Assembly (NCBI GenBank): GCA_028820655.1 | Contig: JAPPIK010000059.1 | Span: 1-32,855, forward strand | Direction: 5' to 3' | Length of the DNA stretch: 32,855 bases | Source: Candidatus Poribacteria bacterium | GTDB taxonomy: Bacteria; Poribacteria; WGA-4E; JAJDTR01 | Shown here: positions 3,611-32,855 of the stretch, piece by piece | Layout: every line of letters starts with the position of its first letter | Position numbering within the stretch: the stretch's first letter is position 1 | Notes under the pieces: generated by a model | Database searches by the model: none | Seen by the model: the letters and a program-made list of their open reading frames with translations, nothing else | Told to the model about the DNA's origin: nothing | Made by a program: the position numbers and the translations under genes

Positions 3611-3664
3611 TGGGAACTCCTATCGGTCAGTTGATCGCTCCTTATTCACTCGTTTGATTCTATA
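3611..3664 (-). repeat. Dispersed repeat family A, copy 1
   Basis: Reads (plus strand) GGAACTCCTATCGGTCAG, then TTGATCGCTCCTTATTCACT and CGTTTGATT. It is a diverged copy of the family whose sense form carries ATCAAG..GAGTGAATA..GCGATAGAAATCCC. It lies about 105 bp downstream of the alcohol dehydrogenase stop, in sense orientation to that gene. Confidence 0.55.
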
Positions 3665-3768: not shown

Positions 3769-4926
3769 CTACGGTACCACAACCACTTTCATGCACTCAT
3801 CGGGTTCCATCGACTTTAGCATCGCCGACTCTGTTTCCACGAGCGGGAATACGTGCGACACGAACTTTTCGAACGGAAAGTGATCGGCATACCGTTGCAT
3901 TAGATCCATGCTGGGGGTATAACCCGTGAAGGGGTGGTTGGTCATGCCGATGAGGCGGATATTCTTCGAACAGAAGTGGCGGTGCGGGCTGAGCGACACC
4001 TCCCCGGTCTCGGCGAAATTCCCCGGCTCAAGGTAGATGCCTCCTTTGCGCGTCATGTCCAGTCCTTCGGGCACGACCTCGGCGATGCCTGCACACTCGA
4101 TAACGATGTCGGCGCCGCGTCCGTGCGTTAGAGAACGCACAAACTCGATGCGCTCCTCCGACGTGGTTTCGGCGGCGTTAACGGTGTGATCGGCGCCGAA
4201 CTCCTCCGACAGTCCCAAGCGATATTCCGAGCGGTCAACCGCGATGATGTTTCCGGCTCCCATTACGCGCGCCTTGATGAGGTGACAGATTCCCATGGGA
4301 CCGACGCCCTGGATGACGACCGTGCTGCCGGTAGCGAAGCCGTCGCCCGTCAGGGTAAATAGCTCTTTGGTCTTGTCGAGGTTATAGCTGACCGCCATCA
4401 ACTCCGCCATGACCGCGACGCGCAGAGGTATGCCTTCGGGCACTTTGTACAGGAACGCATTGGGCAGGATGTACATGTATTCCGCCCAACCCCCGAACAG
4501 GTGGGGCGATTCGGCGGACGTGAAGGCATTGCCGTAACCGCGCAGCTTCTCGCACCACGGGAAAGCGAAGGTATGCCGGCATTCGTAGCATTCGCCGCAC
4601 ACGACATCCGGGCACAGCGCGACGCGATCTCCCACGTTCAGGCGTTCTCCGTTGAAGTCGAGGCGCGGACGTTCGCTGTCGTTGATGTCGGCAACCACGC
4701 CTATGATTTCGTGTCCCGGGATGATCGGGAACGGCGTGTCGGATTCAGCGTCGGTGCCGGCGTACTGCTTCGTCTCGCCGCGCCAGGTGTGTTTGTCCGT
4801 GCCGCAGATGCCGCACATCTCGACCTTGAGGAGAACGGCGCCGTCTTCCAGTTGCGGAAAGGGGAACTCCTGAATCTCGATCTTTCCCGGATGCACCATT
4901 ACGGCGGCGCGTACACTGTCGCTCAT
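3769..4926 (-). CDS. Zinc-dependent alcohol dehydrogenase, MDR family
   Basis: A 385-residue medium-chain dehydrogenase. The catalytic zinc ligands are Cys41 (MCGICGTDKH), His72 and Glu73 (PGHEIIG). The structural zinc loop has Cys110, Cys113, Cys116 and Cys125. Its last gap is 8 residues, one longer than the usual 7, and the lobe is extended before it. The nucleotide-binding motif GVGPMG is at 207-212, followed by Asp231, which favours NAD+. This fits sorbitol/threonine-dehydrogenase-like polyol or sugar dehydrogenases. The ATG at 4926 has AGAAAGAA just upstream. The 74-bp gap to the GH127 gene contains a strong hairpin. It probably oxidises an alcohol, polyol or sugar released in the pathway; the substrate is unknown. 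Confidence 0.92.
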   Translation of the reverse strand: MSDSVRAAVMVHPGKIEIQEFPFPQLEDGAVLLKVEMCGICGTDKHTWRGETKQYAGTDAESDTPFPIIPGHEIIGVVADINDSERPRLDFNGERLNVGDRVALCPDVVCGECYECRHTFAFPWCEKLRGYGNAFTSAESPHLFGGWAEYMYILPNAFLYKVPEGIPLRVAVMAELMAVSYNLDKTKELFTLTGDGFATGSTVVIQGVGPMGICHLIKARVMGAGNIIAVDRSEYRLGLSEEFGADHTVNAAETTSEERIEFVRSLTHGRGADIVIECAGIAEVVPEGLDMTRKGGIYLEPGNFAETGEVSLSPHRHFCSKNIRLIGMTNHPFTGYTPSMDLMQRYADHFPFEKFVSHVFPLVETESAMLKSMEPDECMKVVVVP

Positions 4927-4960: not shown

Positions 4961-4984
4961 GCGGGGCAAGATGCCCCGCCTACG
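4961..4984. repeat. GCGGGGCA hairpin repeat, copy 1
   Basis: GCGGGGCA-AGA-TGCCCCGC makes an 8-bp perfect stem with a 3-nt loop, followed by CTACG. The whole 24-bp unit recurs, reverse-complemented and identical, at 12292-12315. It lies between the GH127 stop and the alcohol dehydrogenase start. It could attenuate or process the transcript there, but lacks a T-run and so is not a standard terminator. Confidence 0.7.
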
Positions 4985-7715: not shown

Positions 7716-7769
7716 GCGAGGGATTTCTATCGCAGTCGCTATTCACTTCTTTGATCCCACCCTACGGGA
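7716..7769 (-). repeat. Dispersed repeat family A, copy 2
   Basis: Plus strand: GGATTTCTATCGCAGTCGC, then TATTCACTTCTTTGATCC and CACCCTAC. It starts about 30 bp downstream of the PhyH stop, in sense orientation to that gene, and lies within the PhyH-RraA spacer. Confidence 0.75.
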
Positions 7770-7800
7770 AGAATTGCTTTATACTGTGTCTCGTGTGAAT

Positions 7801-8508
7801 TTAGATTTCGGCGGAACGTGCCGTCAGTTCTTGCAAGCGCGGGGAGAATGTCTCGTAAACTTCACGCTTGATTAGGGGCCAAGCCGTTGGGCCGCGGTAT
7901 AACACTGCCGGCATATAGTATACGTTTGCCAGCATGCGGTGTTGGTCGGTTGTCGTGTTCGCGCCGGACCGGTGCCAAAGTCCGTTGTGGTAGACAAAGG
8001 CAGAACCCTTCTTTCCGGTAACCGGCATTTCCTGCGGATAGCTTTCCCGGCTGGGGCTGCGTTGCGTGAGGTGGCTAAAAGGCACAATTCGCGTGGCGCC
8101 GTTTTCCGGGGTGCTGTCGGTGAGCATCCAGAACACCTGAAGCCCGTTCCAAGGCGGGAAGAGCGAGCTTGGATCCGCCGCCAACGCGCCGCGTGTTGGC
8201 CAATCGGCGTGCAGGCTGCCGGCGGGGGTTCCGGGTTTGCACCATTTTAACGCAGCATTGTTCGCCAAGAAATAGCCTTCTCCGAGCACGGCTTCCGCAA
8301 TCTCAAGAATCAGCGGATGTGTGCACAGTGTCGCCAGTTCCGGAATATCGTTCAATGATCCTTCGAGGCTGATATACGCCGATCCCATGGACTCCATTAT
8401 CGACCGCGCCATGCCGTCGAGACGTTCCGCCTCTTGCGGGTCAAGCAATCCCTCGAAAATACAGTAACCTTCCTCTGCCAGTCTATCCTTAATCTCGTTG
8501 ATATCCAT
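7801..8508 (-). CDS. Phytanoyl-CoA dioxygenase (PhyH) family protein
   Basis: A 235-residue Fe(II)/2-oxoglutarate-dependent oxygenase. The iron ligands are seen as HAD (His100, Asp102) and His179 in LWHRSG; Arg191 is placed to bind 2-oxoglutarate, 12 residues past that His. The N-terminal helix-turn EEGYCIFEGLLDPQEAERL is typical of the PhyH family, and the length is near normal for short bacterial members. The frame continues 19 codons upstream, but I start at 8508, where AGAGGGAAAA precedes ATG and the family N-terminus begins. It is the first gene of the metabolic cluster. A TTGCCA/TATAGT promoter candidate lies about 95 bp upstream. Substrate unknown: such enzymes hydroxylate many small molecules, and phytanoyl-CoA itself is unlikely here. 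Confidence 0.88.
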   Translation of the reverse strand: MDINEIKDRLAEEGYCIFEGLLDPQEAERLDGMARSIMESMGSAYISLEGSLNDIPELATLCTHPLILEIAEAVLGEGYFLANNAALKWCKPGTPAGSLHADWPTRGALAADPSSLFPPWNGLQVFWMLTDSTPENGATRIVPFSHLTQRSPSRESYPQEMPVTGKKGSAFVYHNGLWHRSGANTTTDQHRMLANVYYMPAVLYRGPTAWPLIKREVYETFSPRLQELTARSAEI

Positions 8509-8603
8509 CGTTTTCCCTCTGTACGTGCCTCGAACGCCGATACATTTTTTGGTGAATGTTGACAAGCCTAATACATAAATAATTCGCCTTTCGGGAAGTT
8601 TAC

Positions 8604-8632
8604 ACTATAGCCGATTTTGATTAGGATGGCAA
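8604..8632 (-). promoter_or_regulatory. Sigma70-type promoter candidate for the PhyH gene
   Basis: On the minus strand, TTGCCA (8632-8627) is followed after exactly 17 bp by TATAGT (8609-8604). Each hexamer has one mismatch to TTGACA/TATAAT. The start codon is about 95 bp downstream. Read from sequence only; it could also serve the genes beyond PhyH. Confidence 0.5.
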
Positions 8633-8887
8633 CAGAAATCTAGGGTGTTCACCGAGCCATCGCAGCATATCATTAGTTATGGATCTGCCCCCGCTTCACT
8701 CTATGGTGGACGGGATGGGGGGCGTTGACACGCCCCTTGTTATTCTATAAAATACGAGGTATGCAACCCCTTAATTGTTTCAGGAGCGTATTCTCTAAAG
8801 AACAGCGGCACATTTCCTCAAGAGCCCGTTCGAATAGTCCGCAGTAAAGCCATTATTGACAGAAATGAGCGCGTTTGAAAAACACAA

Positions 8888-8980
8888 TTGTAGGGTGCAA
8901 TCAAGTGAGTGAATAACGAACGATCAAGGGAGCGAATAGATCAAGTGGCTAAATAAGGAACGCGATAGAAATCCCATAGA
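8888..8980 (+). repeat. Dispersed repeat family A, copy 3 (long form)
   Basis: The longest readable copy. It opens with TAGGGTGC, then has three sub-repeats starting ATCAAGTGAGTGAATAACGA, ATCAAGGGAGCGAATAG and ATCAAGTGGCTAAATAAGGA, and closes with CGATAGAAATCCCATAGAGA. It is the left arm of a long imperfect inverted repeat with 9313-9433. Confidence 0.75.
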
Positions 8981-9003
8981 GATCTTCTCTAGGTCGTGAT
9001 TCC

Positions 9004-9031
9004 CCGCTCCAGCGGAGCGGCATGTCAATAG
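9004..9031. repeat. Covarying hairpin repeat, copy 1
   Basis: CCGCTCC-AGC-GGAGCGG: a perfect 7-bp stem with loop AGC, followed by CATGTCAATAG. The sister copy at 9053-9080 has the same loop and tail with paired stem changes. Confidence 0.75.
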
Positions 9032-9052
9032 CAGGGAGACGCCTCGATTCTT

Positions 9053-9080
9053 GCACTCCAGCGGAGTGCCATGTCAATAG
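9053..9080. repeat. Covarying hairpin repeat, copy 2
   Basis: GCACTCC-AGC-GGAGTGC with tail CATGTCAATAG, 49 bp after copy 1. Two stem positions differ from copy 1, and both arms change together, so pairing is kept. Confidence 0.75.
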
Positions 9081-9312
9081 ATGTTCTAAAAATAGCTTTG
9101 CCGCCGACTAGTCAGACAGGTGCTGAAGTTGATGATGGAAGGGACAACCGGTCAATCAATCGGACTCATGGAAGTATCTAGGCGGTTTTTGCTCGTTCGA
9201 AGAGATACGACCAAGATCTAGTATGTGAAAATTCGAGATTACACAAGTCTATTATGAGGAAGATGAGTTGAAGACTCATTTTTTCATTTTTGTAATTGGC
9301 CGAAAAACACCT

Positions 9313-9433
9313 GTGGAATCTCTATGGGAGTTCTATCGCACTCACTACCCGTCCGGTTGATCCCTCGCTGTTCACTCGCTCGCTGTTCACTCGGTTGATC
9401 CATCCTTAATCAGTCGGTCGCCCGCACCCTACC
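9313..9433 (-). repeat. Dispersed repeat family A, copy 4 (long form, inverted)
   Basis: Right arm of the inverted repeat. It reads TCTCTATGGGAGTTCTATCG at its inner end and GCACCCTACC at its outer end. It holds a 15-bp-period duplication of TCGCTGTTCACTCG at 9365-9378 and 9380-9393. Confidence 0.7.
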
Positions 9434-9439
9434 ACTGAC

Positions 9440-9478
9440 GAGTCGAGGCGTATTTTGTTCGCGGTCGAGTCGAGGCGT
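9440..9478. repeat. GAGTCGAGGCGT direct repeat upstream of the metzincin gene
   Basis: Two exact 12-bp copies, 9440-9451 and 9467-9478, 27 bp apart; a one-mismatch inverted copy lies at 9039-9050. A weak promoter-like pair TTGTTC (9455-9460) and TATGAA (9479-9484) with an 18-bp spacer brackets the second copy, so the repeat could be a regulator site. That is speculative. Confidence 0.35.
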
Positions 9479-9553
9479 TATGAATAAAGTTGATGACACC
9501 TAACGTAGCTGCCACGATATTGGCGACACACCAACAACAGAGAAGGTAATAAA

Positions 9554-12019
9554 GTGCGATTCAAATGCATAGTGTTTTTAGCCATCGTCTCGTTAAGTGT
9601 TCCACTGCACGGTGAGGCGCAAGAACCGACGATCCTTGAGTATGGACAGGCAGTATATACGGTTGCATTTTCACCGGTGAATTCTTCGATTATCGCTGCT
9701 GCCGGTAAGGCCAATGATCCTGATGACAACATCATAAAAGTTTGGAATCTTGAGACAAATAAGGCAATAATGCTACATGGACACACCAGTAAAATCAACT
9801 CCGTGGCTTTTTCTCCAAACGAGGAGTTACTTGCCAGCGGAGGCGATGATTGGACCTTCAGATTGTGGGATATTTCACAAAAGCAAAATATCGCTACCTT
9901 TAAGCACATTACAAACCGAGGGCGATCACAAGTCAAGGTCGTAGCATTTTCACCAGATGGGGAACTCCTTGCCACCGCTGGGAGACATGTAAAGTTATGG
10001 CAGGTCAGTAACCAAACCGAGATAGCTACACTTCAACACAACGGGTACGTTTGGGCGTTAGCCTTTTCCCCTGATGGACAACTCCTCGCGGCTGGCGACA
10101 ATACCGGGAGCGTGAAAGTTTGGACTGTTCAGACGAGACAAGTGATTGCGCGGCTAGAAGGCGATACGACCGGAGTATATTCTGTCGCATTTTCACCAGA
10201 TGGCAGAACCCTTGCGAGTGCCGGGTATCAGGGACAGATTAAATTGTGGGCTGTGGCAAATTGGGAACTCCTTGGCACGCTCCAAAATAGCGGAACTGCT
10301 TTTACTGTTGATTTCTCCCTTGATGGGAAAGCACTTGCGAGCACAGGGCACGAAACTATCCGCCTGTGGTCTGCCGAGAGCGGCGAAAAGATTACTTCGC
10401 TGACAGGGCACACCGGCTGGGTCAGGGCTGCCGCCTTTTCACACGACGGAGCCACCCTCGCCAGCGGCGGTGATGATGGGATTGTTCGTGTTCAGAATAT
10501 TGAAACTCATCTCCAGACACTGCAACAACGAAAGATGGTTCGCCTAATCTACTTTCTCCCTCAAGACCGCTTACACCGGGAGGATATAGGCACAAAGCTG
10601 GATATGTTGATAATGGACACACAGCAGTTTTACGCCGAACAGATAAAAAACCACGGATTCGACAGAAAAACTTTTGTGTTTGAAACCGATGTAACTGGAG
10701 CGGCTGTGGTGCATCATGTGAATGGGAAGTTCACCGATCGGCATTATTATAATGACACGCTCGACAAAGTCATGGCAGAAATTGATGAACAGTTTGACGT
10801 GTCAAAAAATCTCTATCTCATAGCTATAGATATTGGCGGCGAGCGCATTGACACGCGATGGTGTGGTCGAGGTGGATTTGAATGGTCCGGGACTGGGAAG
10901 GCAATCATCCCTGCCTCCGGTGATTGTTTTGCCGTTGATACCACTGCACACGAACTCGGGCACGCCTTTGGATTAGAACATGATTTCCGCAACGATGCCT
11001 ATATTATGTCATACGGGAGTGGAGCTCGCCGCCGATTGTCGCACTGTGCCGCCGAATGGTTAGATGCCAGCCGATTTTTCAACGCCAACCAAACCGCTTA
11101 CAACGAGCCAGCCACAATTCAGATGCTTGAACCGCTGGCAATTCCACCGAATGCCATTAGCCTTCGCTTTGAGGTAACCGATACTGATGGGCTCCATCAA
11201 GCTCAATTAATTATTCCGACAATTGCTGGCGACCCGGCCGAAGGTGTTAAATTACACGGTTGTAAAACCTTTAACGGTGAAATGAACCTGATTGAATTTA
11301 TCACAACAGATTTGAATGCGGCCTCCGGTAACGAAGTGAGCCTTCGTGTGATTGATGTGCATGGAAACTTTTCACAGGAAACGTATTTGATCGAGATGGA
11401 TGATGTAGTGCGGGTAGATGTCAACGGCGATGGAATAATTGATGTTGCAGATCTGGTGCTTGTAGCGTCTTTCTACGGTCAATCTAGGGCGCCTGGCACA
11501 ATCTTAAATTCAGATGTTAATGGCGATGGCGTCGTTGATGTGAACGACCTCCTACTGGTTGTCGCCGCGCTGGAGGCCTCGGCAAATGCACCTGCTGCAC
11601 ATTCACAACCATTTGCGGCTAACCTGGAGCGGTGGATTGCCGAAGCAAAGCAACGCGACCTTGGAGATAAAATTTTCCAAAAAGGTATTGCAGTGCTAGA
11701 GCAGCTCCTAGCGAGGGTTCGTCCGACAGAAACAGTGCTGTTGCCCAACTATCCAAATCCGTTCAACCCGGAGACGTGGATACCGTATGAATTGGCGACT
11801 GCCAGCGACGTGCAAATCACGATTTACGATGCGCAGGGCGCAATCGTCCGCCGGCTAGACGTTGGTAAACAACAGGCAGGTTATTTCGGGGACAGAAATC
11901 GTGCCGCGTATTGGGATGGCCGTAACGGATCCGGTGAGCGCGTTGCTAGTGGTCTGTACTTCTACACATTAACCGCCGATGAATTCATCGCCACGGGGAA
12001 AATGTTGATTGGAAAATAG
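9554..12019 (+). CDS. Secreted WD40 / metzincin metalloprotease / dockerin / C-terminal sorting-type protein
   Basis: An 821-residue exported protein with a GTG start; AGAAGG lies 7 bases upstream. Residues 1-22 are a signal peptide. Residues 28-318 hold about seven WD40 blades (repeated VAFSPDG, LASGGDD, VKLW). Residues 330-510 form a metalloprotease domain with HELGHAFGLEH at 466-476, the metzincin zinc motif (His466, His470, His476, catalytic Glu467), and a Met485 turn in IMSYG. Residues 619-672 are a type I dockerin with two calcium loops (DVNGDGIIDVADL and DVNGDGVVDVNDL). Residues 731-821 run from NYPNPFNPETWIPY to YWDGRNGSGERVASGLYFY, a FlgD-Ig/type-IX-sorting-like end module. All catalytic residues are present, so it is probably an active surface or secreted protease whose propeller presents substrates. 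It is the only plus-strand gene. Which secretion route reads the end module is unknown. Confidence 0.9.
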   Translation: MRFKCIVFLAIVSLSVPLHGEAQEPTILEYGQAVYTVAFSPVNSSIIAAAGKANDPDDNIIKVWNLETNKAIMLHGHTSKINSVAFSPNEELLASGGDDWTFRLWDISQKQNIATFKHITNRGRSQVKVVAFSPDGELLATAGRHVKLWQVSNQTEIATLQHNGYVWALAFSPDGQLLAAGDNTGSVKVWTVQTRQVIARLEGDTTGVYSVAFSPDGRTLASAGYQGQIKLWAVANWELLGTLQNSGTAFTVDFSLDGKALASTGHETIRLWSAESGEKITSLTGHTGWVRAAAFSHDGATLASGGDDGIVRVQNIETHLQTLQQRKMVRLIYFLPQDRLHREDIGTKLDMLIMDTQQFYAEQIKNHGFDRKTFVFETDVTGAAVVHHVNGKFTDRHYYNDTLDKVMAEIDEQFDVSKNLYLIAIDIGGERIDTRWCGRGGFEWSGTGKAIIPASGDCFAVDTTAHELGHAFGLEHDFRNDAYIMSYGSGARRRLSHCAAEWLDASRFFNANQTAYNEPATIQMLEPLAIPPNAISLRFEVTDTDGLHQAQLIIPTIAGDPAEGVKLHGCKTFNGEMNLIEFITTDLNAASGNEVSLRVIDVHGNFSQETYLIEMDDVVRVDVNGDGIIDVADLVLVASFYGQSRAPGTILNSDVNGDGVVDVNDLLLVVAALEASANAPAAHSQPFAANLERWIAEAKQRDLGDKIFQKGIAVLEQLLARVRPTETVLLPNYPNPFNPETWIPYELATASDVQITIYDAQGAIVRRLDVGKQQAGYFGDRNRAAYWDGRNGSGERVASGLYFYTLTADEFIATGKMLIGK

Positions 12020-12124
12020 AAAGGTACGCATTCCACTATCCACCCGCTGTAAGGGCGTTCTCCTCGTCGCAAGCAGAACTCGCTCCAACAACCTAGGAAG
12101 ACAGAGGCGGCCCGCAGGCATAGG

Positions 12125-12138
12125 TAGGGTGCACCCTA
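12125..12138. repeat. TAGGGTGCACCCTA palindrome
   Basis: A perfect 14-bp palindrome about 105 bp after the metzincin stop. It shares the TAGGGTGC core that opens family A copies and that precedes each GCGCAC palindrome of the end array. Confidence 0.5.
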
Positions 12139-12291
12139 GAGGAATCAAATGCAGGAACGATTCAGGAACCATGGGTGTGGGGTTTCACATTTTCTCTATC
12201 CGCAGGCCAGTGTTTTTATAAGTTGGATTCTAATACCATTTCGCTTGAATAACAGTGCATATAATGCCTTAATTGTGTCATTCACCTTTAC

Positions 12292-12315
12292 CGTAGGCGG
12301 GGCATCTTGCCCCGC
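12292..12315. repeat. GCGGGGCA hairpin repeat, copy 2
   Basis: CGTAG followed by GCGGGGCA-TCT-TGCCCCGC; identical over 24 bp to the reverse complement of 4961-4984. Confidence 0.7.
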
Positions 12316-12431
12316 CGGCTTTGCACGGAGACAAGGTTTCTTACTACACAAGTCTCTTTACCTAATCCAAGTAATTGATGCACTGCCGTTCTAGAGAAAT
12401 GGTATAACTTCACGCTAACACAACTCCGCGC

Positions 12432-12448
12432 TTGGCTGTTCAAGCCAA
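12432..12448. repeat. TTGGCT hairpin
   Basis: TTGGCT-GTTCA-AGCCAA: a 6-bp stem with a 5-nt loop, followed by CCTACATGAC. Single copy in the window. Confidence 0.4.
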
Positions 12449-12480
12449 CCTACATGACTTGACAGAATAACTGTACCACA

Positions 12481-12537
12481 AGGGATCTCTATCACACTCG
12501 CTATTCGCTCGCTTGATCTATCCGCTCAGTTAATCTC
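12481..12537 (-). repeat. Dispersed repeat family A, copy 5
   Basis: Plus strand AGGGATCTCTATCACACTCG, then CTATTCGCTCGCTTGATC. It lies about 117 bp downstream of the DUF6785 stop, in sense orientation to that gene. Confidence 0.75.
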
Positions 12538-12555
12538 GCCAATGGAGAATAAGAA

Positions 12556-12581
12556 GTCGCGGCCTGGAGATCGCTCCTACC
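12556..12581 (-). repeat. Solo copy of the terminal-array hairpin
   Basis: Minus strand reads GGTAGGAGCGATCTCCAGGC then CGCGAC, matching the GAGCGATCTCCAGGTCGCGA unit repeated at 32434-32855. This shows that the end-array unit is dispersed. Confidence 0.6.
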
Positions 12582-12653
12582 ACATCGCGGAATATAACAA
12601 ATGTATCTATTTGCGAATACTCTCCGACTGTAGTCGTACAACTTATCCTGCCG

Positions 12654-14585
12654 CTACCAGCCCCACTCGGTGAAATAGGGGAAGATGCGATAGACATGCT
12701 GCCCCCGAATTTCGCCAAAGATTGTCCATAAACTGCCGATGACGTGCTGCCCCAGAATGATGCCGATGAAGAACGGCACCATACGCCGGTAAAGTTGAAT
12801 TCCGCCGAATTTCAGAATCGCCCACTTTAAAAACCACGCCACGAACACCGAGAACCAGATGCCGCCCATCATCCAGCCGCAAGCCACGGCATAGCCGACG
12901 GGATGGAAGGGGAATCCGAGAAATTTTTGATGTAGCACACGGAGGGCGATTGTAACCCCCGCGCCTATCCCGACATCGCGGAGCATCGGATAGTTTTGGC
13001 TGCGCGGGTGTTGGATCCAAGAATCCAACATGCGGAAACCGTTGTCGCCGATATTGTGGTAGACGTTGTCCGCGCCGAAGTGATACATGTTGTGCAAGAG
13101 CGCCCAAAAGCCGGCATACGTACCCACGATTGAGGCGACAATCATGGCAATCAGGAAATGACGGCTTGGCGCATTAAGCAGTTGCGCCATCTTGAAACCT
13201 TCAATCTGATGGCCGACCGGATGGGAACGATATGCGCGGCACATCCAGAACAGGTGGCTGAACATGGCGATGTTTGTTACCCCGATGCGGCGTGGACCAA
13301 CTACATTCAAGAGCATCTGATCGGGCCCCATAAATTCGGCGTCGTGGGCGGGAGGCCCAATCTCCGCGCGGATGCGGGCAATAGCCACCGCATAGAGGAT
13401 GTAGATAAGCAGAAAGAGAAGGACGACCCAGGCGGACATGCCGGCGTAGCCGAGGAACGCGACCAGAGCGATGAAACCCAATACGATGCCGGCGAGCGCC
13501 GATCGGTAACTCATCGCCTCGTTGGCGGCGGTTTCGGGGCTCTTCCCACGGATAATTTCTTTCAACACCTGCTTCAAGTGCAGTCGCGCAGACCACAGTG
13601 GTAGAATGGCCAATATTATCCACGAACCCGCCGTTTGATAGCTTCGGAAGGGGCCCGGAGTTGCCCAGATTCCCATCGCGTTTCGGTAAACGAGGTCCGC
13701 TTTCCAAACGAGGTGGAAAAACCAGGCTGAGAACGCCAAATTCAACGGAAGAAAATACGCCATCCCGACCACGAACGGATAAACCGCCATCGGTAACCAA
13801 CCAACGGCGCTCCACGGTTTTTCGGTAAAAAACCTGCCGAGATTGTAGATTGGCGCGAAATTTGGAGCGACGGGCCACAACCCGTGAAGCCCGTTCATCA
13901 GGTCAAATGTGCCCGCAATCCCGAATCCGATCCACAACATCCGATTGGAAAGCAGCCCGGTGCCACCCTTCGCCATCTCCATCGGGAGTTGGATGACGGG
14001 GTAAGCCAATTTTTCATTTTCTGTCCATTGCTTCCGAATGATGACATTGATGCAAACAATGACGAAAAATAGAACAATCAGGAAACCGCCCCAACCTAAT
14101 GCCGGAATTAACCAAGGCTTGAAATGTTCGGAAATATAGAGAGTGGTTTCCCCTTGATGGTAGCCTTGCAGCGCGGTTGAGTCGTAAACGGTTGCCCACT
14201 CGGGCACGTGTCTGCCAAAAAGAGCCATCCATTCGTTTTCCGGGGTCACGAACCAGAAACTCGTGAGGTGTTGAACCATTACGAGCAATAGGTCGTGCCC
14301 AAAAATGCCTGTGGCGATGGCGTTCATCACATAAATGATAAGTAGTTCGATGGGCTGGAGCGCGGCGTTGGGAGCGTATTTGTTGAGGAATGCGTTGAGC
14401 ACCAACAGCAGGAATAGGGTAAAGGTAACGTTGTAAAAGAGGGTGAAGAGTGTCGAAAAGACAGGTTGGTAGATGGTTTCGGCGAGCGTCAGCCAGTATA
14501 GGTTTATTGGGATGAGGAGTGCGCCGATAAGCAGAGCGCGGTAGGATAGAGTAGTAGCGCTATGATGTGTCGGTCCGGCTTTCAA
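12654..14585 (-). CDS. DUF6785/DUF6784-type multi-pass membrane protein
   Basis: A 643-residue inner-membrane protein with about 12 hydrophobic segments, the first at residues 17-38. Family-like landmarks are the segment RKQWTENEKLAYPVIQLPME after the fourth helix and a conserved-looking loop with EIGPPAHDAEFMGP, then HPVGHQIEGFKMA. I place it in the DUF6785 (N-terminal) / DUF6784 (C-terminal) family from pattern memory; the function is not established, though the shape is transporter-like. The start at 14585 is TTG (TTG AAA GCC GGA CCG) without a clear ribosome site, and no in-frame ATG lies before the first helix, so the start is uncertain by a few codons. It is convergent with the metzincin gene. 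Confidence 0.75.
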   Translation of the reverse strand: MKAGPTHHSATTLSYRALLIGALLIPINLYWLTLAETIYQPVFSTLFTLFYNVTFTLFLLLVLNAFLNKYAPNAALQPIELLIIYVMNAIATGIFGHDLLLVMVQHLTSFWFVTPENEWMALFGRHVPEWATVYDSTALQGYHQGETTLYISEHFKPWLIPALGWGGFLIVLFFVIVCINVIIRKQWTENEKLAYPVIQLPMEMAKGGTGLLSNRMLWIGFGIAGTFDLMNGLHGLWPVAPNFAPIYNLGRFFTEKPWSAVGWLPMAVYPFVVGMAYFLPLNLAFSAWFFHLVWKADLVYRNAMGIWATPGPFRSYQTAGSWIILAILPLWSARLHLKQVLKEIIRGKSPETAANEAMSYRSALAGIVLGFIALVAFLGYAGMSAWVVLLFLLIYILYAVAIARIRAEIGPPAHDAEFMGPDQMLLNVVGPRRIGVTNIAMFSHLFWMCRAYRSHPVGHQIEGFKMAQLLNAPSRHFLIAMIVASIVGTYAGFWALLHNMYHFGADNVYHNIGDNGFRMLDSWIQHPRSQNYPMLRDVGIGAGVTIALRVLHQKFLGFPFHPVGYAVACGWMMGGIWFSVFVAWFLKWAILKFGGIQLYRRMVPFFIGIILGQHVIGSLWTIFGEIRGQHVYRIFPYFTEWGW

Positions 14586-14783
14586 ACATACACCGCCGCG
14601 AAGGTTGTCAGTTGCTAACGTAGAAATGGGGAATTATCCCTGAACGTCCGGGATGCTACTAATCTCCCTGTTTTCGAGGGCGGCGAGATTCGTCTTAGAG
14701 CCCTGTCGGTCGAGCTTGGGCTCAAGAGGGAACGCGGGTAGACTCTTGCATTGGGCAGAATGCATGGAGAGTTGTTGAAAGGT

Positions 14784-15533
14784 TTATCTCAATCGTTTAA
14801 TTGCTCCCCACGATGTCGCCAGCGAATTGAGAAAAGACACGGATTGGGGTTTATCCGGTTCAAATTCGAACAATTCCCGCACCTCTTTGGCATCGAATCC
14901 GCGGTCATAGACGCGCAGGTCGTCCATGACACCCACAAAAGCGTTCAACCCCATAAAGCCGATCTGTATTCTTGAGTCCGTTTGCGCTATCTTGCCAACA
15001 CCGTTGTTATTTCCCATGGCGGCAGCGTTCGTGTAATAGCTTGCGGTACCCTTGTGCAACGTTCCGACGATATGATTCCATTCATCCAAAATCAGTTTCT
15101 CCCCGGGCCCCGTCCCTTTCCATACGCCGCCGACACGAATCTCGATTCGCCCGGCACCGCTAAGAATATCTATGTTATATTGACCGTCCTTGTAGATGGC
15201 GCGGTTCTCACCGGCGTGGTCTAGTTTCTTCGGCTTGACCCAGAAGGAGACGGCAAATTCCTTTTCGACTGTCAAGCGTTCCGTCTTGTGTATCACGGCG
15301 CTATGGGATTGCTCGTCAAACAGCAAGCCGTCCCCGAATTTGCCGTCTCGCGTCCGCTTGGCAGTGATAATCTGACCGTCATTCCCGTTACCGGTTTCGT
15401 CCCTGAGCACCTTGTCTTTGCCCTCGAACGGGTAATAACCGATGAGGCCGTCTTCAAGATCGGCGGAGACCGGCAACACCAAGATAACTGCAATAATCAT
15501 TAGAAAAATGCCAAACGGCAGTTGACCTGTCAT
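14784..15533 (-). CDS. Secreted LamG-domain protein, copy 1
   Basis: A 249-residue protein with a signal peptide at residues 1-24 (hydrophobic FGIFLMIIAVILVLPVSA) and a concanavalin-like LamG domain filling about residues 28-225 (GLIGYYPFEGKDK, EFAVSFWVKP, WNHIVGT, FVGVMDDLRVYDRGFDAKEV). It ends in a tail with SLATSWGAIK that is shared with both neighbours. LamG folds bind carbohydrates or proteins; no catalytic domain is attached, so it is probably a binding or adhesion protein outside the cytoplasm. ATG at 15533 follows AGGAG (in ATGAGGAGCC), a strong site. It is a paralogue of the 16102-16881 protein. Confidence 0.88.
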   Translation of the reverse strand: MTGQLPFGIFLMIIAVILVLPVSADLEDGLIGYYPFEGKDKVLRDETGNGNDGQIITAKRTRDGKFGDGLLFDEQSHSAVIHKTERLTVEKEFAVSFWVKPKKLDHAGENRAIYKDGQYNIDILSGAGRIEIRVGGVWKGTGPGEKLILDEWNHIVGTLHKGTASYYTNAAAMGNNNGVGKIAQTDSRIQIGFMGLNAFVGVMDDLRVYDRGFDAKEVRELFEFEPDKPQSVSFLNSLATSWGAIKRLR

Positions 15534-15599
15534 TTAAGGCTCCTCATGTCAAAGTTAATTCTGAATCTTCTCGGCGCGAAACACCGAAATCCGGAGCAT

Positions 15600-15926
15600 T
15601 CACCGAACTATTGCGTCTTGATCCGTTGCCTTCAGGTCGCCCCATATAGTCGACAATGAGTCAACGGGAGAAACCGAGAATGCCCCGGGATTGTGTCCAA
15701 AGAGTTGCTCAATTTCTTGGTCGTCAAGCGTGCGGTCGTATATCCGCAACTCATCAAATACTCCCACAAAGCCCGTTAACCCGCAGCATGAGCCTAATCG
15801 CCGTGGCGACTGAATCCGGGTAAGTTGATCCGAAGCGGTTTTTCCGATGCTGACGTGTACCCCGTCCACGAAAAATGCGCCTGTCTTTTTCTGCGATTCG
15901 AACGTTCCGGCTAGGATATCCTCCAC
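15600..15926 (-). pseudogene. Truncated LamG-domain gene (C-terminal remnant)
   Basis: An open frame of 108 codons from a GTG. It matches only the last third of the flanking LamG proteins: a DILAGTFES strand, then GFVGVFDELRIYDRTLDDQE, and the tail SLSTIWGDLKA. There is no signal peptide and no N-terminal two thirds. An in-frame TAG sits just upstream of the GTG, and the preceding 160 bp (15940-16101) in any frame does not look like LamG. The N-terminal part therefore seems to have been deleted rather than frameshifted. It lies between two intact paralogues, so it is probably a decayed tandem duplicate. It could still be expressed as a small protein, but it would not fold as a complete LamG sandwich. 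Confidence 0.7.
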
Positions 15927-16101
15927 CCAATGCCGCTATTCGAGCATCGGGTTAGGTTGGCAAAAAAGGGCGATAGGAGGTTTCCCGGTAACGTTTTCAG
16001 CACAAACGTGACGCACGGAGACTAAGACGAAGTCCAGTTTCGTATTTGCACATTGCAGCACCCCACCTTCGTCCGTAACCCTTGAATACAGGTTATAAAG
16101 G

Positions 16102-16881
16102 TTACTTCCGATTCGCTTTGATATTACCCCATGTGGTAACCAGCGAACCGTTGGGAGAAACCGATACGCTTGGATCCAATTGAAACAGCGCCTGTACGTC
16201 GTCTTCGCTGAAGGCGCGCTCATAGAGCCGCACATCGTCCAGACTGCCGACCATGCACTGAATTCCCATGTGCCCGAAATGAAGCGTGGATTGTGCCACT
16301 TGGATAGCCGGGGGAGCTGCCGTGCCTACCAACTCGCCGTTAACGTAATGCGATGACAGTTGCGCGTTGGCATCGTAGGTTCCCAAAATGTGGTGCCACG
16401 CTCCTACTGCCAGATCACCTCCCGCAGCGGGTGTACCTATCCAAGCGTCGGGGTTCTTTATTTCAAAGCGTCCCTTGGCGTGAAGCACATCAAGATTAAG
16501 TTGGTTGGAATAGATGACCCTGTTTTCGAATTCCGGCCACGTGTCACCTGTTGAAAGCGCCTCCGGATGAATCCAAGCGGCAACTGTTAAATCACCTTCG
16601 AATGTCAGACTCTCGGAGCCGGGCACGGATGCTTTATCGGTGTTGTTGGCGAACCGGATGGCTTTTCCGAATCTTCCGTTATCAACTCGTTGAGCCGAAC
16701 CTAGGTCGCCGTTATTCCCCATCCCGCTCGCATCTGCCAGCGTATTGTCGCTTCCTTCGAACGGGTAATGCGCGACAAGTCCATCGTCCAGCGCGGCAAA
16801 CGTCGTCGAAACGGACCCCGACAGCATCAAGGCGAGTCCCGCAAATAGTGAGACGATGTAAAGAAATGAGTAAGTTTTCAT
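16102..16881 (-). CDS. Secreted LamG-domain protein, copy 2
   Basis: A 259-residue protein. The signal peptide is residues 1-29 (MKTYSFLYIVSLFAGLALML), then ALDDGLVAHYPFEGSDNTLAD and a LamG domain to about residue 235 (DLTVAAWIHPE, WHHILGTYD, MVGSLDDVRLYERAFSEDDV). It ends with SLVTTWGNIKANRK, the tail seen in the two neighbours. Two in-frame ATGs are possible. I choose the second (16881) because GGAG, formed partly by the first ATG, lies about 9 bases before it and the signal peptide then begins with a Lys. The first ATG (16896) would add five residues. Role as for copy 1: a non-catalytic extracellular binding domain. Confidence 0.87.
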   Translation of the reverse strand: MKTYSFLYIVSLFAGLALMLSGSVSTTFAALDDGLVAHYPFEGSDNTLADASGMGNNGDLGSAQRVDNGRFGKAIRFANNTDKASVPGSESLTFEGDLTVAAWIHPEALSTGDTWPEFENRVIYSNQLNLDVLHAKGRFEIKNPDAWIGTPAAGGDLAVGAWHHILGTYDANAQLSSHYVNGELVGTAAPPAIQVAQSTLHFGHMGIQCMVGSLDDVRLYERAFSEDDVQALFQLDPSVSVSPNGSLVTTWGNIKANRK

Positions 16882-16979
16882 TGAGTAATTCTCCATGATA
16901 GGTTTGTTCGAGGTTTAGTGGTTCATTCGATAAGACTTCAATGCTTACGAGACTGGCACAAAAACCTGTTCTACCAAAC

Positions 16980-17064
16980 CGGTAGGTGCGGTTAGACGAA
17001 GTTAAAAACATAATTCGGTAATATCCTAACGATGCTCGGTGCGGTTAGGAAACCGCACCTACCG
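16980..17064. repeat. GGTGCGGTT hairpin with outer inverted partner
   Basis: GGTGCGGTT-AGGA-AACCGCACC at 17038-17059 is a 9-bp perfect stem with a 4-nt loop. A second half-site, CGGTAGGTGCGGTT at 16980-16993, is the exact inverse of AACCGCACCTACCG at 17051-17064, so two alternative stems can form. It lies about 100-180 bp upstream of LamG copy 2. Confidence 0.65.
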
Positions 17065-17291
17065 ACGGTGTTAAATGGCTCTCCCGCCCAGTCTAGGAAG
17101 TTTTGAATTCTTAGAAGGCAAATTATAGCGCAACCGCGCTTAATGGCAATTATTGTATTTGAATCGTCAAAGAAGATCAACTACTTTCCGCAAATGTGAA
17201 GAATCAGGGGATAATCACTAATCAACAGAATCGGGACAACCAGATTCCCATGCTCGCGATGTAACCGAATGGGCTTTTAAGGCTGGTGCGC

Positions 17292-17340
17292 AGGGGATTT
17301 CAATCGAACTCGTTATTCACTCGCTTGATTGCACGCTACA
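17292..17340 (-). repeat. Dispersed repeat family A, copy 6
   Basis: Plus strand AGGGGATTTCAATCGAACTC, then GTTATTCACTCGCTTGATTG. It starts about 24 bp downstream of the BatA-type stop, in sense orientation to that gene. Confidence 0.75.
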
Positions 17341-17363: not shown

Positions 17364-19271
17364 TTAATCAATCCGTCTGCGTTGATACAGGAACCACTCC
17401 ACTACACTCAGGACGGCGGCAAGGAAAACGAGGTACACCCAGGGCGGGTATTGCAAGAGCGAGGAACCGACGAGTGTGACCTCCGGGGTCAACAGATCCT
17501 CTACCGAGGCGTCAACGCCGATGTGCGATTCCGAATCGTCCGAGAGGTTGACCGCCCACATCTTTTCGCTATCACCGATTTTCAACGTATAGAAACCGGC
17601 AATTTCTGTGCGATCAAAGAGTACTTCACCCCGCTCGAGGGCGGTTTCCCACGTCTGATCTCCAGGTCCGGTGATTGTAGCGGTAGCAGGGGCGTCCGTC
17701 CCATCGCCGTCGGATTTCCACGTCAACACTTCGCCGGTGTGCAGATGGTATTCCTCAATCCCCGAACTATCTTGAAACCACTGAATCGTGTTGGCAATGA
17801 TAACCGGAAAGGCGATACGCAGCGGGAGGTCGGATTGCAGGATGTCAATAGCCGCAAAGACGATCTTGCGCTTGGGCGTTACATCGACAAACAGCACGGG
17901 GTCTTCAAACGAACGGGCTAACACCGCGGCTGTAGCGGGCGGCTTGACGTGGTACGCCTCGCCGATCTGCACATTCTCCAGATGAACGTGACGCAGGATT
18001 GGATGCGTCCGCTCCCAATCGGTGACAATGGGCGTATCGAGCGGGTCGCCGATTTCCCAACTCGCGACAGCGGGGCTTTTTTTGGGAGGATAGACAATCA
18101 TATAATTCCCATCACCGAGCGTTTGCGGGGCGAATCGATCGAAGATGACTACATTATACCCGGTTGCATTCGCATCATAGTCCTCCGGCCTAGTGACGCT
18201 GAGGCTCAGATTTTCGTCAACGGAGAGCGCTTTTTCGAGGAACGGATTCTCTTCGGTCACAAGCAAAACCGGGATATGCTCGCGTTTGGGTAACGCGGCG
18301 TAGGCAACGTTATCGGTATGCAGCGCATCCGCGACATCCAACACCGCCTTGAGCTGCCCGCCTTCGAAGGTAAAATTGCCGAAGATTTCGGATTTGCTTT
18401 CGCCGGGTGCGAGCGTGTAAGGCCGAACATCAAAGAGGCCTTCGTTGAAATAGAGTTCGACGTTGCACTTCTTCTTCTCTTCCGATGCATTGACAACGGT
18501 TAACAGCGTCTGGTAATCGAACGCATTAACGAGACTCTTTCGTACGCGGAATTGAGTGATGCCGACATTGTCACTTACCGCGCCAACCTGAATCGGATGG
18601 AGCGTAATCTCATCGCCCGAGTCGTGGAGTTGCGTCAGCATTTCTTCGGAAACTGTTTGAAAGTCGCTGAAGATGACAATTTCGGCGCTGGGCTTTGTTC
18701 GGGCAACGGCATGCGCCAAACCGAGTGCTGGTTCAAGATTCGTTCTGATGTCGGTTGGCTGTATGGATTGAATTGCACCTCGAAGCGACTTCCGGTGGTT
18801 GGTGAATGGACTATGGATTGTTGGCTTCGCATGGCAACTTATCACCATCATTTCGTCCATGAAGCGCAGACCTTCTACCATTCGGAGGGCGCGCTGCTTG
18901 GCGGACTCCAACCGCGAGTTTGATGCGGCACGATTAGACTCACGCTCTTCGTCGGAAGACTCCTGGGCATTCATGCTTGCCGAATGGTCGATTATCAAGA
19001 TGATATGCCGGGCGGACTTGGTAATGAATGCGAACTGAGGTCGGGCGATCGCAAGCACCAAGAGTGTCAAAAACAGGAGTTGGAGCAGCAACGACAGCAG
19101 GTGCTTCAGTTTTTGGAACAGCGATGTCGTCTGCTTCTCTTTGAATAGCTGCTCCCAAAACATCAACGTGGAGACCGGTTCGCGACGTCGGCGAAGTTTG
19201 AGAATGTACAGAAGGACGATTGGAGCGGCGAGACCAAACAGAAGAAGAGATGTGGGGGATAGGAAGTTCAT
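17364..19271 (-). CDS. BatA-type VWA membrane protein
   Basis: A 635-residue protein. It begins with the aerotolerance/BatA N-terminal segment: a first membrane helix (about 7-25), then LKLRRRREPVSTLMFWEQLF, and a second helix (57-76) ending LAIARPQF. A von Willebrand A domain follows, with the MIDAS start DHSAS at 95-99 (Asp95, Ser97, Ser99). The middle part is beta-rich and presumably periplasmic. A last helix at about 608-627 ends with the basic anchor YQRRRID. BatA proteins bind partners through the metal site and occur with MoxR and DUF58 proteins, as here, where it is the last gene of the block, 64 bp after DUF58. It could be the membrane receptor of the complex (inference). The ATG at 19271 has only a weak ribosome site. 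Confidence 0.88.
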   Translation of the reverse strand: MNFLSPTSLLLFGLAAPIVLLYILKLRRRREPVSTLMFWEQLFKEKQTTSLFQKLKHLLSLLLQLLFLTLLVLAIARPQFAFITKSARHIILIIDHSASMNAQESSDEERESNRAASNSRLESAKQRALRMVEGLRFMDEMMVISCHAKPTIHSPFTNHRKSLRGAIQSIQPTDIRTNLEPALGLAHAVARTKPSAEIVIFSDFQTVSEEMLTQLHDSGDEITLHPIQVGAVSDNVGITQFRVRKSLVNAFDYQTLLTVVNASEEKKKCNVELYFNEGLFDVRPYTLAPGESKSEIFGNFTFEGGQLKAVLDVADALHTDNVAYAALPKREHIPVLLVTEENPFLEKALSVDENLSLSVTRPEDYDANATGYNVVIFDRFAPQTLGDGNYMIVYPPKKSPAVASWEIGDPLDTPIVTDWERTHPILRHVHLENVQIGEAYHVKPPATAAVLARSFEDPVLFVDVTPKRKIVFAAIDILQSDLPLRIAFPVIIANTIQWFQDSSGIEEYHLHTGEVLTWKSDGDGTDAPATATITGPGDQTWETALERGEVLFDRTEIAGFYTLKIGDSEKMWAVNLSDDSESHIGVDASVEDLLTPEVTLVGSSLLQYPPWVYLVFLAAVLSVVEWFLYQRRRID

Positions 19272-32332: not shown

Positions 32333-32433
32333 AAGCGATCCTCCCTGAAGGTACGTGTAGAATAGCATATCGGCGGAAGAGAGATTTAATCTATCGGTTG
32401 CATGAGCCTTGCGGTGCAAAAGTTTGGTTTATC

Positions 32434-32855
32434 CATGTGGGAGCGATTTCCAAATCGCGATTCCCCGCTGTAGGCGCGATCTCCAGATCACGATCCCCCC
32501 GCTCGTGATGTAGGGTGCGCACTGCGCACCAGCCTTTACAAGCAGTTGTACGAGCGACCTCCATCTGTGGGAGCGATCTCCAGGTCGCGACTCCCCGCTC
32601 CAGTTGTAGGGTGCGCACTGCGCACCACCTTTATAAGCAGTTGTAGGAGCGACCTCCATCTGTGGAAGCGATTTCCAAATCGCGATTCCCCGCTGTAGGA
32701 GATCAATGGAATGAACAATGACTGCGATAGAGATCTTCTCCAGGTCGCGACTCCCCGCCCCAGTTGTAGGGTGCGCACTGCGCACCAACCTTTACAAGCA
32801 GTTGTACGAGCGACCTCCATCTGTGGGAGCGATTTCCAAATCGCGATTCCCCGCT
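32434..32855. repeat. Nested tandem array of hairpin repeats at the window end
   Basis: The unit combines a GAGCGATTTCCAAATCGCGA-type hairpin, CCCCGCT, a TAGGGTGCGCAC palindrome, ACAAGCAGTTGTA and GAGCGACCTCCATCTGTGG. Palindromes GGTGCGCACTGCGCACC occur at 32514-32530, 32610-32626 and 32770-32786. The first two are 96 bp apart; the third is 160 bp on because a family A piece is nested between them. The GCGATTT/AAATCGC and GCGATCT/AGGTCGC forms both keep the stem. The array continues past the window, so its size is unknown. It lies upstream of the giant TPR gene. Confidence 0.85.
32699..32741 (+). repeat. Dispersed repeat family A, copy 7 (partial, nested)
   Basis: Plus strand GATCAATGGAATGAACAATG, then ACTGCGATAGAGATCTTCTC. 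It matches the sense form of family A and sits inside the hairpin array, where it lengthens one unit by about 64 bp. Confidence 0.55.

Follow-up and report, generated by a model that had tools for sequence, protein, structure and literature searches.

A folded 35-nucleotide repeat nested in the palindromic repeats of Poribacteria: a candidate for a very small mobile element

Small dispersed repeats (SDRs) were described in Nostoc and its relatives by Elhai and colleagues (2008, Genome Res. 18:1484), as cited in PMC3116915. They are reportedly non-coding, multi-copy cyanobacterial sequences of 21-27 nt, restricted to one lineage, which form hairpins with compensatory changes, occur nested or in tandem, and have HIP1 octamers, tandem heptamers and minitransposons among their hosts. 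The present work concerns a repeat unit of 34-37 nt that is found at seven places in a 32,855-bp stretch of DNA (the window: bases 1-32855 of contig C48, from a Candidatus Poribacteria genome of 5.88 Mb in 61 contigs) and that is often placed inside repetitive extragenic palindromic (REP) sequences. The REPs of Escherichia coli require an AA-GC irregularity in the stem; the transposase TnpA-REP works on single-stranded REP DNA, accepts the REP strand but not the complementary one, and tolerates changes to the upper half of a REP (PMC8266576). REPs have also been found within palindromes, namely GTAG-15 in A. variabilis, GTAG-23 in T. roseum and CGTC-1 in H. neapolitanus (PMC3733652). Gene-carrying insertion sequences are known to target REPs site-specifically (PMC1525189), and IS1397 is one such element as cited in PMC3116915.

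From sequence comparisons, the Poribacteria repeat is read here, with about even confidence, as a very small non-coding mobile element that would travel as a folded single strand, be selected for its structure, nest in REPs and probably be moved by REP-type transposases. The unit has been amplified to about 1,000 copies, it occupies a set point in several palindromic repeats, and at least one palindrome that carries it in one species stands without it in a sister species.

The repeat family and its fold

The repeats form a genuine family that extends across the genome. A profile derived from copies in the whole genome, which scores sequence only and not pairing, was run on the window and recovered exactly the seven dispersed copies listed in the first-pass annotation, the one at 3611-3664 weakly (E=0.013); the core word GCGATAGARATC, with up to two mismatches, occurs 15 times in the window against 5.5 expected, a level reached in 0 of 100 shuffles. 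A 25-mer search of the genome with up to three mismatches returned 284 matches, and its reversed control none. From a sample of 1.606 Mb the profile retrieved 277 units at E<0.1 (the reversed sequence gave five weak matches, with E>0.6), which, scaled up and not counted, extrapolates to some 1,000 units in the whole genome. These units form 207 arrays, 149 of them single-unit and the longest with five profile units; predicted genes contain only two arrays, though the coding share per sequence is 72-84% (genes were predicted by a codon-usage script and their boundaries are approximate). Matches to the exact repeat core in a public genome collection were confined to metagenome-assembled genomes of Candidatus Poribacteria; viral contigs gave no exact match, and carriage by viruses was rejected. 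The strand of the unit followed no clear GC-skew pattern with respect to the replication strand. The first 125 kb of contig C15 contain zero repeat arrays; a 72-kb segment of the same contig (G000:C15:141776-213915) contains 16, and the syntenic place in G001 measures only 663 bp.

The unit reads ATCAA-(NNGANN)-GNATA-(NNGANN)-GCGATAGARATCCC, and in aligned copies conservation spans (A/G)ATCAA to about GATCCC and is near-random beyond; ATCAA and GCGATAGA are strongly conserved, as is the fold. What had been annotated as one to three units per copy proved to be 23-nt hairpin modules that together with a 12-nt tail module (GCGATAGARATC) make up the full unit, in arrays that elsewhere reach five. 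Hairpins spaced 23 nt apart are each well paired (3.89 of 4) and differ in stem type; units spaced 35 nt apart are alike, and are probably tandem duplicates. Copies with two hairpins were examined for mutual avoidance of neighbours, and nothing was found beyond their being different subtypes (p=0.15).

The unit folds on its sense strand as an irregular hairpin, made of two short helices enclosing a pair of G·A mismatches, and of a GNATA loop. In a scan for Watson-Crick coupling across the 34-nt core, pairs 10-18, 7-21, 6-22 and 11-17 stand out, and in 141 distinct cores each of them takes several matched forms: GC 71, CG 30 and AT 28 at 10-18; CG 85, GC 19 and TA 17 at 7-21; GC 53, GT 39, CG 16 and AT 16 at 6-22; and TA 48, CG 43 and TG 37 at 11-17. 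Between them lie two nearly invariant mismatches, 8-20 (G·A in 134 of the 141) and 9-19 (A·G in 126). When 103 sequences were aligned without gaps, 89.6% of the cells at the four stem pairs were paired, compared with 60.4% after shuffling, double-change cells numbered 143 against 33, and the signal vanished when the partner column was slid. This covariation is not produced by the choice of copies, because the collecting profile is blind to pairing. When 301 distinct units, including another Poribacteria family, were analysed for coupling, the three strongest stem pairs again came top and 11-17 was also recovered. At the four pairs of the 141 cores G·T outnumbers A·C by 89 to 21, and the sense strand is therefore the folded one.

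The single-sequence folding energy of the plain consensus is no better than that of shuffles, and it is the covariation on which the fold is accepted. In the minimum-energy fold a further, lower stem (ATC/GAT) appears, in which AA and GC face each other unpaired; AA and GC are 93-98% conserved in the 301 units, at the place equivalent to the REP irregularity, and the correspondence in place and polarity with the E. coli element may serve as a lead. Three other candidates were rejected: an outer stem GATC/GATC, which shows no covariation; quasi-palindrome correction as the source of the covariation, since it would have removed the invariant G·A mismatches too; and a known RNA family, since Rfam covariance models gave zero matches on the window at the gathering threshold (and, at a relaxed threshold, weak sub-threshold eukaryotic matches only, away from the unit copies). 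A subfamily with CAGCAA...GCGGTAG, comprising 18 of the 301 units, is found genome-wide (for example at C15:429941-429975) and is frequent in 35-nt tandem arrays; in it positions 2 and 26 shift jointly from T-A to G-G, a coupling that is not of the Watson-Crick kind and may reflect descent or a non-standard contact.

Host palindromes and position relative to genes

Uninterrupted counterparts of occupied sites were sought by masking all units and joining the 40+40-nt flanks of 219 precisely bounded copies; one was found for 94 of the 219, and for 14-25 when flanks were shuffled between copies. The hosts are of at least eight kinds, all hairpin or palindromic repeats and mostly GTAG-tagged REPs, in which the unit sits at a set point with 0-4 bases replaced, as read from alignments that are accurate within a base or two (Table 1). 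The sequence TAGGGTGC, which the first-pass annotation had counted as part of the repeat, lies outside the unit and is the 5' half of a separate palindrome, TGTAGGGTGCGCACTGCGCACCA, whose family serves as host to some of the copies. Of the 219 copies, 85 have GTAG no more than 14 nt to the left, eight have CTAC no more than 18 nt to the right, and one has CTAC to the left; these counts place the folded strand of the unit on the GTAG strand of its hosts, and the GTAG near a unit belongs to the host palindrome and not to the unit itself. Left-right flank complementarity in general is only slightly above that of shuffled flanks, because many hosts are degenerate or chimeric. The flanks of the copy at 8888-8980 were, by eye, read as chimeric, probably from recombination between units. 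Terminal inverted repeats of 15-30 bp, such as a miniature inverted-repeat transposable element (MITE) would have, are missing from the unit, which has only GATC at each end without covariation, and the comparisons of empty and filled sites revealed no target-site duplication, host bases being replaced instead.

Stem types are numerous within each host family. Distinct stem types are nearly as many as the copies in hosts P4 (9 of 9) and P5 (13 of 14), and number 21 among 30 in P2. The distribution of the unit within the order is patchy, counts in unit-rich relatives being lower bounds: it is abundant in G004, in P3 at the same point, and none was found in G007, G012, G016 and G018 despite their 77, 11, 26 and 31 P3 palindromes. 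Units occur in 12 syntenic gaps between C15 and contig C20 of G001; in 11 of these they are confined to one of the two species, and in the twelfth both have them. Whole intergenic alignments were too diverged to yield clean orthologous insertion sites except for one good case, an orthologous P2 that is intact in G000 (C41 near 234.8 kb) and interrupted in G001 (L035; aligned by eye, the automatic alignment being poor). One truncated copy is common to an orthologous place (C41:253862 and L039). In another genus, units cluster in arrays on one short contig (G014:C72:8545-13950) within hosts typical of the genus of the window, possibly by transfer or by binning contamination.

The position of the unit relative to genes follows that of its hosts. 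Four of the copies in the window do lie 24-117 bp past a stop codon in the sense of that gene, as had been pointed out (3611-3664, behind gene 3769-4926, 7716-7769, 12481-12537 and 17292-17340), and the further copies retrieved by the profile are biased in orientation too, with 96 sense and 50 antisense arrays in tandem intergenic regions (72:41 when each region is counted once, p=0.005). Uninterrupted GTAG palindromes in such regions give 83:42 (61:33 once per region). Sense units are shifted towards the upstream stop (mean fractional position 0.43, p=0.009), uninterrupted REPs more so (0.35, p=6e-7), and array numbers in convergent and divergent regions are about as expected from length, neither enriched nor avoided. 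Since uninterrupted REPs show the same ratio and a stronger shift, the modest 3'-end bias of the unit is inherited from its hosts, and the case cautions against inferring function from the position of a repeat. Of the two explanations put forward in the first-pass annotation, a transcript-end function specific to the repeat is thus left unsupported, with 50 of 146 tandem-region copies antisense and 37 copies between divergent genes, and a small mobile element with target-site bias was largely right, save that the bias is that of the host REPs.

Table 1. Unit copies and uninterrupted host palindromes in the window, followed by the host palindromes with their insertion points (empty form; bases in brackets are replaced in the filled form)
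Feature	Position	Strand	Details
Degenerate unit	3611..3664	-	profile E=0.013; first hairpin with 2/4 stem pairs; no host palindrome recognised
Unit, 4/4 stem pairs, in host P2 GTAGGGTGG...CGCCCACC	7716..7769	-	profile E=8e-9; 32 bp past stop of gene 7801-8565
Hairpin-module array between divergent genes	8888..8980	+	left flank P2 5' half TGTAGGGTGC; right flank P1 3' half CTCTAGGTCGTGATTCCCCGC
Hairpin-module array between divergent genes	9313..9433	-	left P2 5' half GTAGGGTGC; right CCACAGGT as on P7 3' side
Two modules, last with 4/4 stem pairs	12481..12537	-	profile E=2e-10; 117 bp past stop of gene 12654-14585
Unit, 4/4 stem pairs, in host P2: TGTAGCGTGCA[unit]CCCTGCGCACCAGCC	17292..17340	-	uninterrupted paralogue found; 24 bp past stop of gene 17364-19271
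Unit, 3/4 stem pairs, in host P1: GTAGGAG[unit]TTCTCCAGGTCGCGAC	32699..32741	+	uninterrupted paralogue at 32437
Uninterrupted host palindrome P3 GTAGGCGGGGCATCTTGCCCCGC	4961..4983	-	sequence
Uninterrupted host palindrome P3	12293..12315	+	empty counterpart of filled site in G001:C32
Uninterrupted host palindrome P1 GTAGGAGCGATCTCCAGGCCGCGACT	12555..12580	-	sequence
Uninterrupted host palindrome P2 GTAGGGTGCGCACTGCGCACC	32510..32530	+	more copies 32606-32626, 32766-32786
Host P1: GTAGGAG(CGAT)CTCCAGGTCGCGAC			GTAG-tagged
Host P2: GTAGGGTGC(GCA)CTGCGCACC			GTAG-tagged
Host P3: GTAGGCGGG(GCAT)CTTGCCCCGCC			GTAG-tagged
Host P4: GTAGGTG(CGG)TTTCTAACCGCACC			GTAG-tagged
Host P5: GTAGTAGC(GCAA)TTCATTGCGCG			GTAG-tagged
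Host P6: CACTCCAGCGG(AGT)GCAATGTC			
Host P7: CCCCAGCGGGG(CG)ACAGGT			
Host P9: CACTAGCC()ACTAAACAC			nothing replaced

Two genes of the window are themselves unusual. Gene 9554-12019 contains six 42-nt direct repeats about 120 bp apart (window 9803-10471), and its product looks like a WD40-type repeat-domain protein; the minus strand of 23504-32419, more than a quarter of the window, is a 2971-aa open reading frame with a TTG start.

Transposase genes, candidate route and rival readings

Seven Y1 transposase genes or fragments were found. Curated models identify the gene at L156 as a REP-associated tyrosine transposase (RAYT; 138.5 bits, cut-off 80) and that at L155 as an IS200/IS605 transposase (62.6, cut-off 55). 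A unit lies about 20 bp behind the L156 RAYT gene, further units lie near Y1 genes, and host REPs flank such genes too, with P1 REPs on the flanks of the Y1 regions of L157 and L158. In the L157 region, where no open reading frame of 100 aa with a usual start is left, three P1-plus-unit copies adjoin, in a tandem duplication of about 207 bp whose three copies each hold a unit-bearing P1 (L157:700-2300), and four uninterrupted P1 palindromes lie on the other side of the region. At L155:1200-1860 the IS200/IS605-type gene is enclosed by inverted pairs of the P7 hairpin AGCCCCAGCGGGGCGA, an arrangement suggestive of a REPtron-like or IS200-like unit with a hairpin that, in this genome, occurs as a dispersed repeat. 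Directly upstream of the RAYT gene, at L156:360-1388, open frames arise from a tandem repeat (RRESPVGGESFPRFFSTLSPV...) and are probably non-coding repeat read as protein. A transposase confined to unit-bearing genomes was considered and rejected, as Y1 counts do not separate the genomes.

In the mobile-element reading, the unit would spread as single-stranded DNA recognised by its irregular hairpin, and be moved in trans by the REP-associated tyrosine transposases (HUH, Y1) that also move the GTAG palindromes. Insertion would take place on the GTAG strand, in the upper part of the host hairpin and at the cost of a few bases, after which the composite of REP and unit could be copied onward as a REP; recombination between units would give rise to chimeric and multi-hairpin copies. 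Stems that are diverse yet intact would reflect selection for the fold among moving copies and not a function at each locus. Placement on the GTAG strand fits a TnpA-REP route because TnpA-REP acts on that strand alone (PMC8266576). A bolder version, which we hold only tentatively, makes the 35-nt hairpin with its tandem G·A pairs an independent traveller: as single-stranded DNA it would insert in the upper part of folded palindromes that belong to many unrelated REP families, would rely on the strand and the transposases of those families, and would thus be a parasite of miniature parasites and one of the smallest mobile elements known.

Several observations weigh against mobility of this kind, beginning with the fact that transposition itself has not been observed. 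Y1 genes are as common in genomes lacking the unit as in those that carry it, and no gene is known to be confined to unit-bearing genomes. GTAG is nearby in only 85 of the 219 copies and is absent from three host families, so it cannot be an entry requirement, and 113 of the 219 copies could be assigned to no recognised host family. The lower stem with its AA/GC is nearly invariant, which leaves that stem unproven. Stem types are also weakly associated with hosts (4.05 differences within against 4.45 between, which 0 of 300 shuffles reach), and one stem type dominates the P3-hosted units of G004, from which it follows that host and unit can also spread together and that part of the spread is host-driven.

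The last two observations would equally be expected if the unit were a long loop variant of REPs, copied by RAYTs and swapped among REP families by recombination without being mobile itself; chimeric flanks such as those at 8888-8980, and the tolerance of TnpA-REP for changes in the upper half of the REP (PMC8266576), point the same way. This we think unlikely, as the position of the unit is fixed even among hosts unrelated to one another in sequence, some of them without GTAG, as some host families have as many stem types as copies, and as P3 is abundant in relatives without any unit. The hairpin might instead be that of an RNA, the unit being transcribed, folded, reverse transcribed and inserted, as proposed for the Nostoc SDRs. 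Folding on the sense strand with G·T (G·U) pairs and a minor gene-sense bias are in line with such a route, but the strand that folds coincides with the one that bears the host GTAG, as a single-stranded-DNA route via TnpA-REP predicts, and the gene-sense bias is no greater than in uninterrupted REPs; an RNA route appears improbable to a similar degree, and passage as single-stranded DNA by way of RAYT/HUH proteins the likelier of the two. Least probable, and distinctly so, is a role as a regulatory or processing RNA element at gene ends that selection maintains place by place. It would account for the strong conservation of the fold and of ATCAA and GCGATAGA, for the sense bias and for a slight nearness to stop codons; yet a third of the tandem-region copies are antisense, the positional bias falls short of the one seen in the host REPs, most units are unshared at syntenic sites, the distribution in the order is patchy and Rfam has no match.

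REPs are already minimal, relying on a transposase encoded elsewhere, and the unit appears to live inside them in turn. Its four varying but matched stem pairs, together with the fixed G·A pairs, loop and tail, offer an unusually clear view of what the machinery must recognise, and the spread of elements below 50 nt could be put to the test with a few transposases and synthetic oligonucleotides.

Comparison with described repeats

The unit behaves most like the Nostoc SDRs, a likeness drawn from their reported description. Like them it is non-coding, shorter than 100 nt, present in many copies, folded as a hairpin with compensatory changes and confined to one lineage, and it is embedded in other repeats and occurs in tandem or multi-hairpin form. 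It differs in its length of 34-37 nt, above the 21-27 nt of SDRs, in the invariant G·A pairs of its stem and in lying mainly in GTAG palindromes.

With REPs and REP doublets forming hairpins (REPINs), in particular the irregular group 2 of E. coli, the unit shares the character of a dispersed, high-copy, strand-specific intergenic hairpin, a predicted AA opposite GC at the equivalent place, the presence of RAYT genes and a sense-biased position near gene ends (PMC8266576). However, it has no 5'-foot GTAG of its own, borrowing that of the host where present, and it sits inside other REPs; its upper-half G·A pairs and loop are conserved, whereas E. coli TnpA-REP does not require them (PMC8266576). 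The want of its own GTAG keeps it out of the REPs, and the absence of both terminal inverted repeats and target duplication keeps it out of the MITEs. As in the REPs found within palindromes, a small hairpin repeat is placed inside another palindrome, but those are tagged REPs in one kind of palindrome per species (PMC3733652), whereas the unit has no tag and enters eight or more kinds, of which the majority are themselves REPs. The insertion sequences that target REPs likewise go into REP palindromes site-specifically (PMC1525189); those are gene-carrying transposons, whereas the unit achieves its nested position with about 35 nt, no gene and no terminal repeats.

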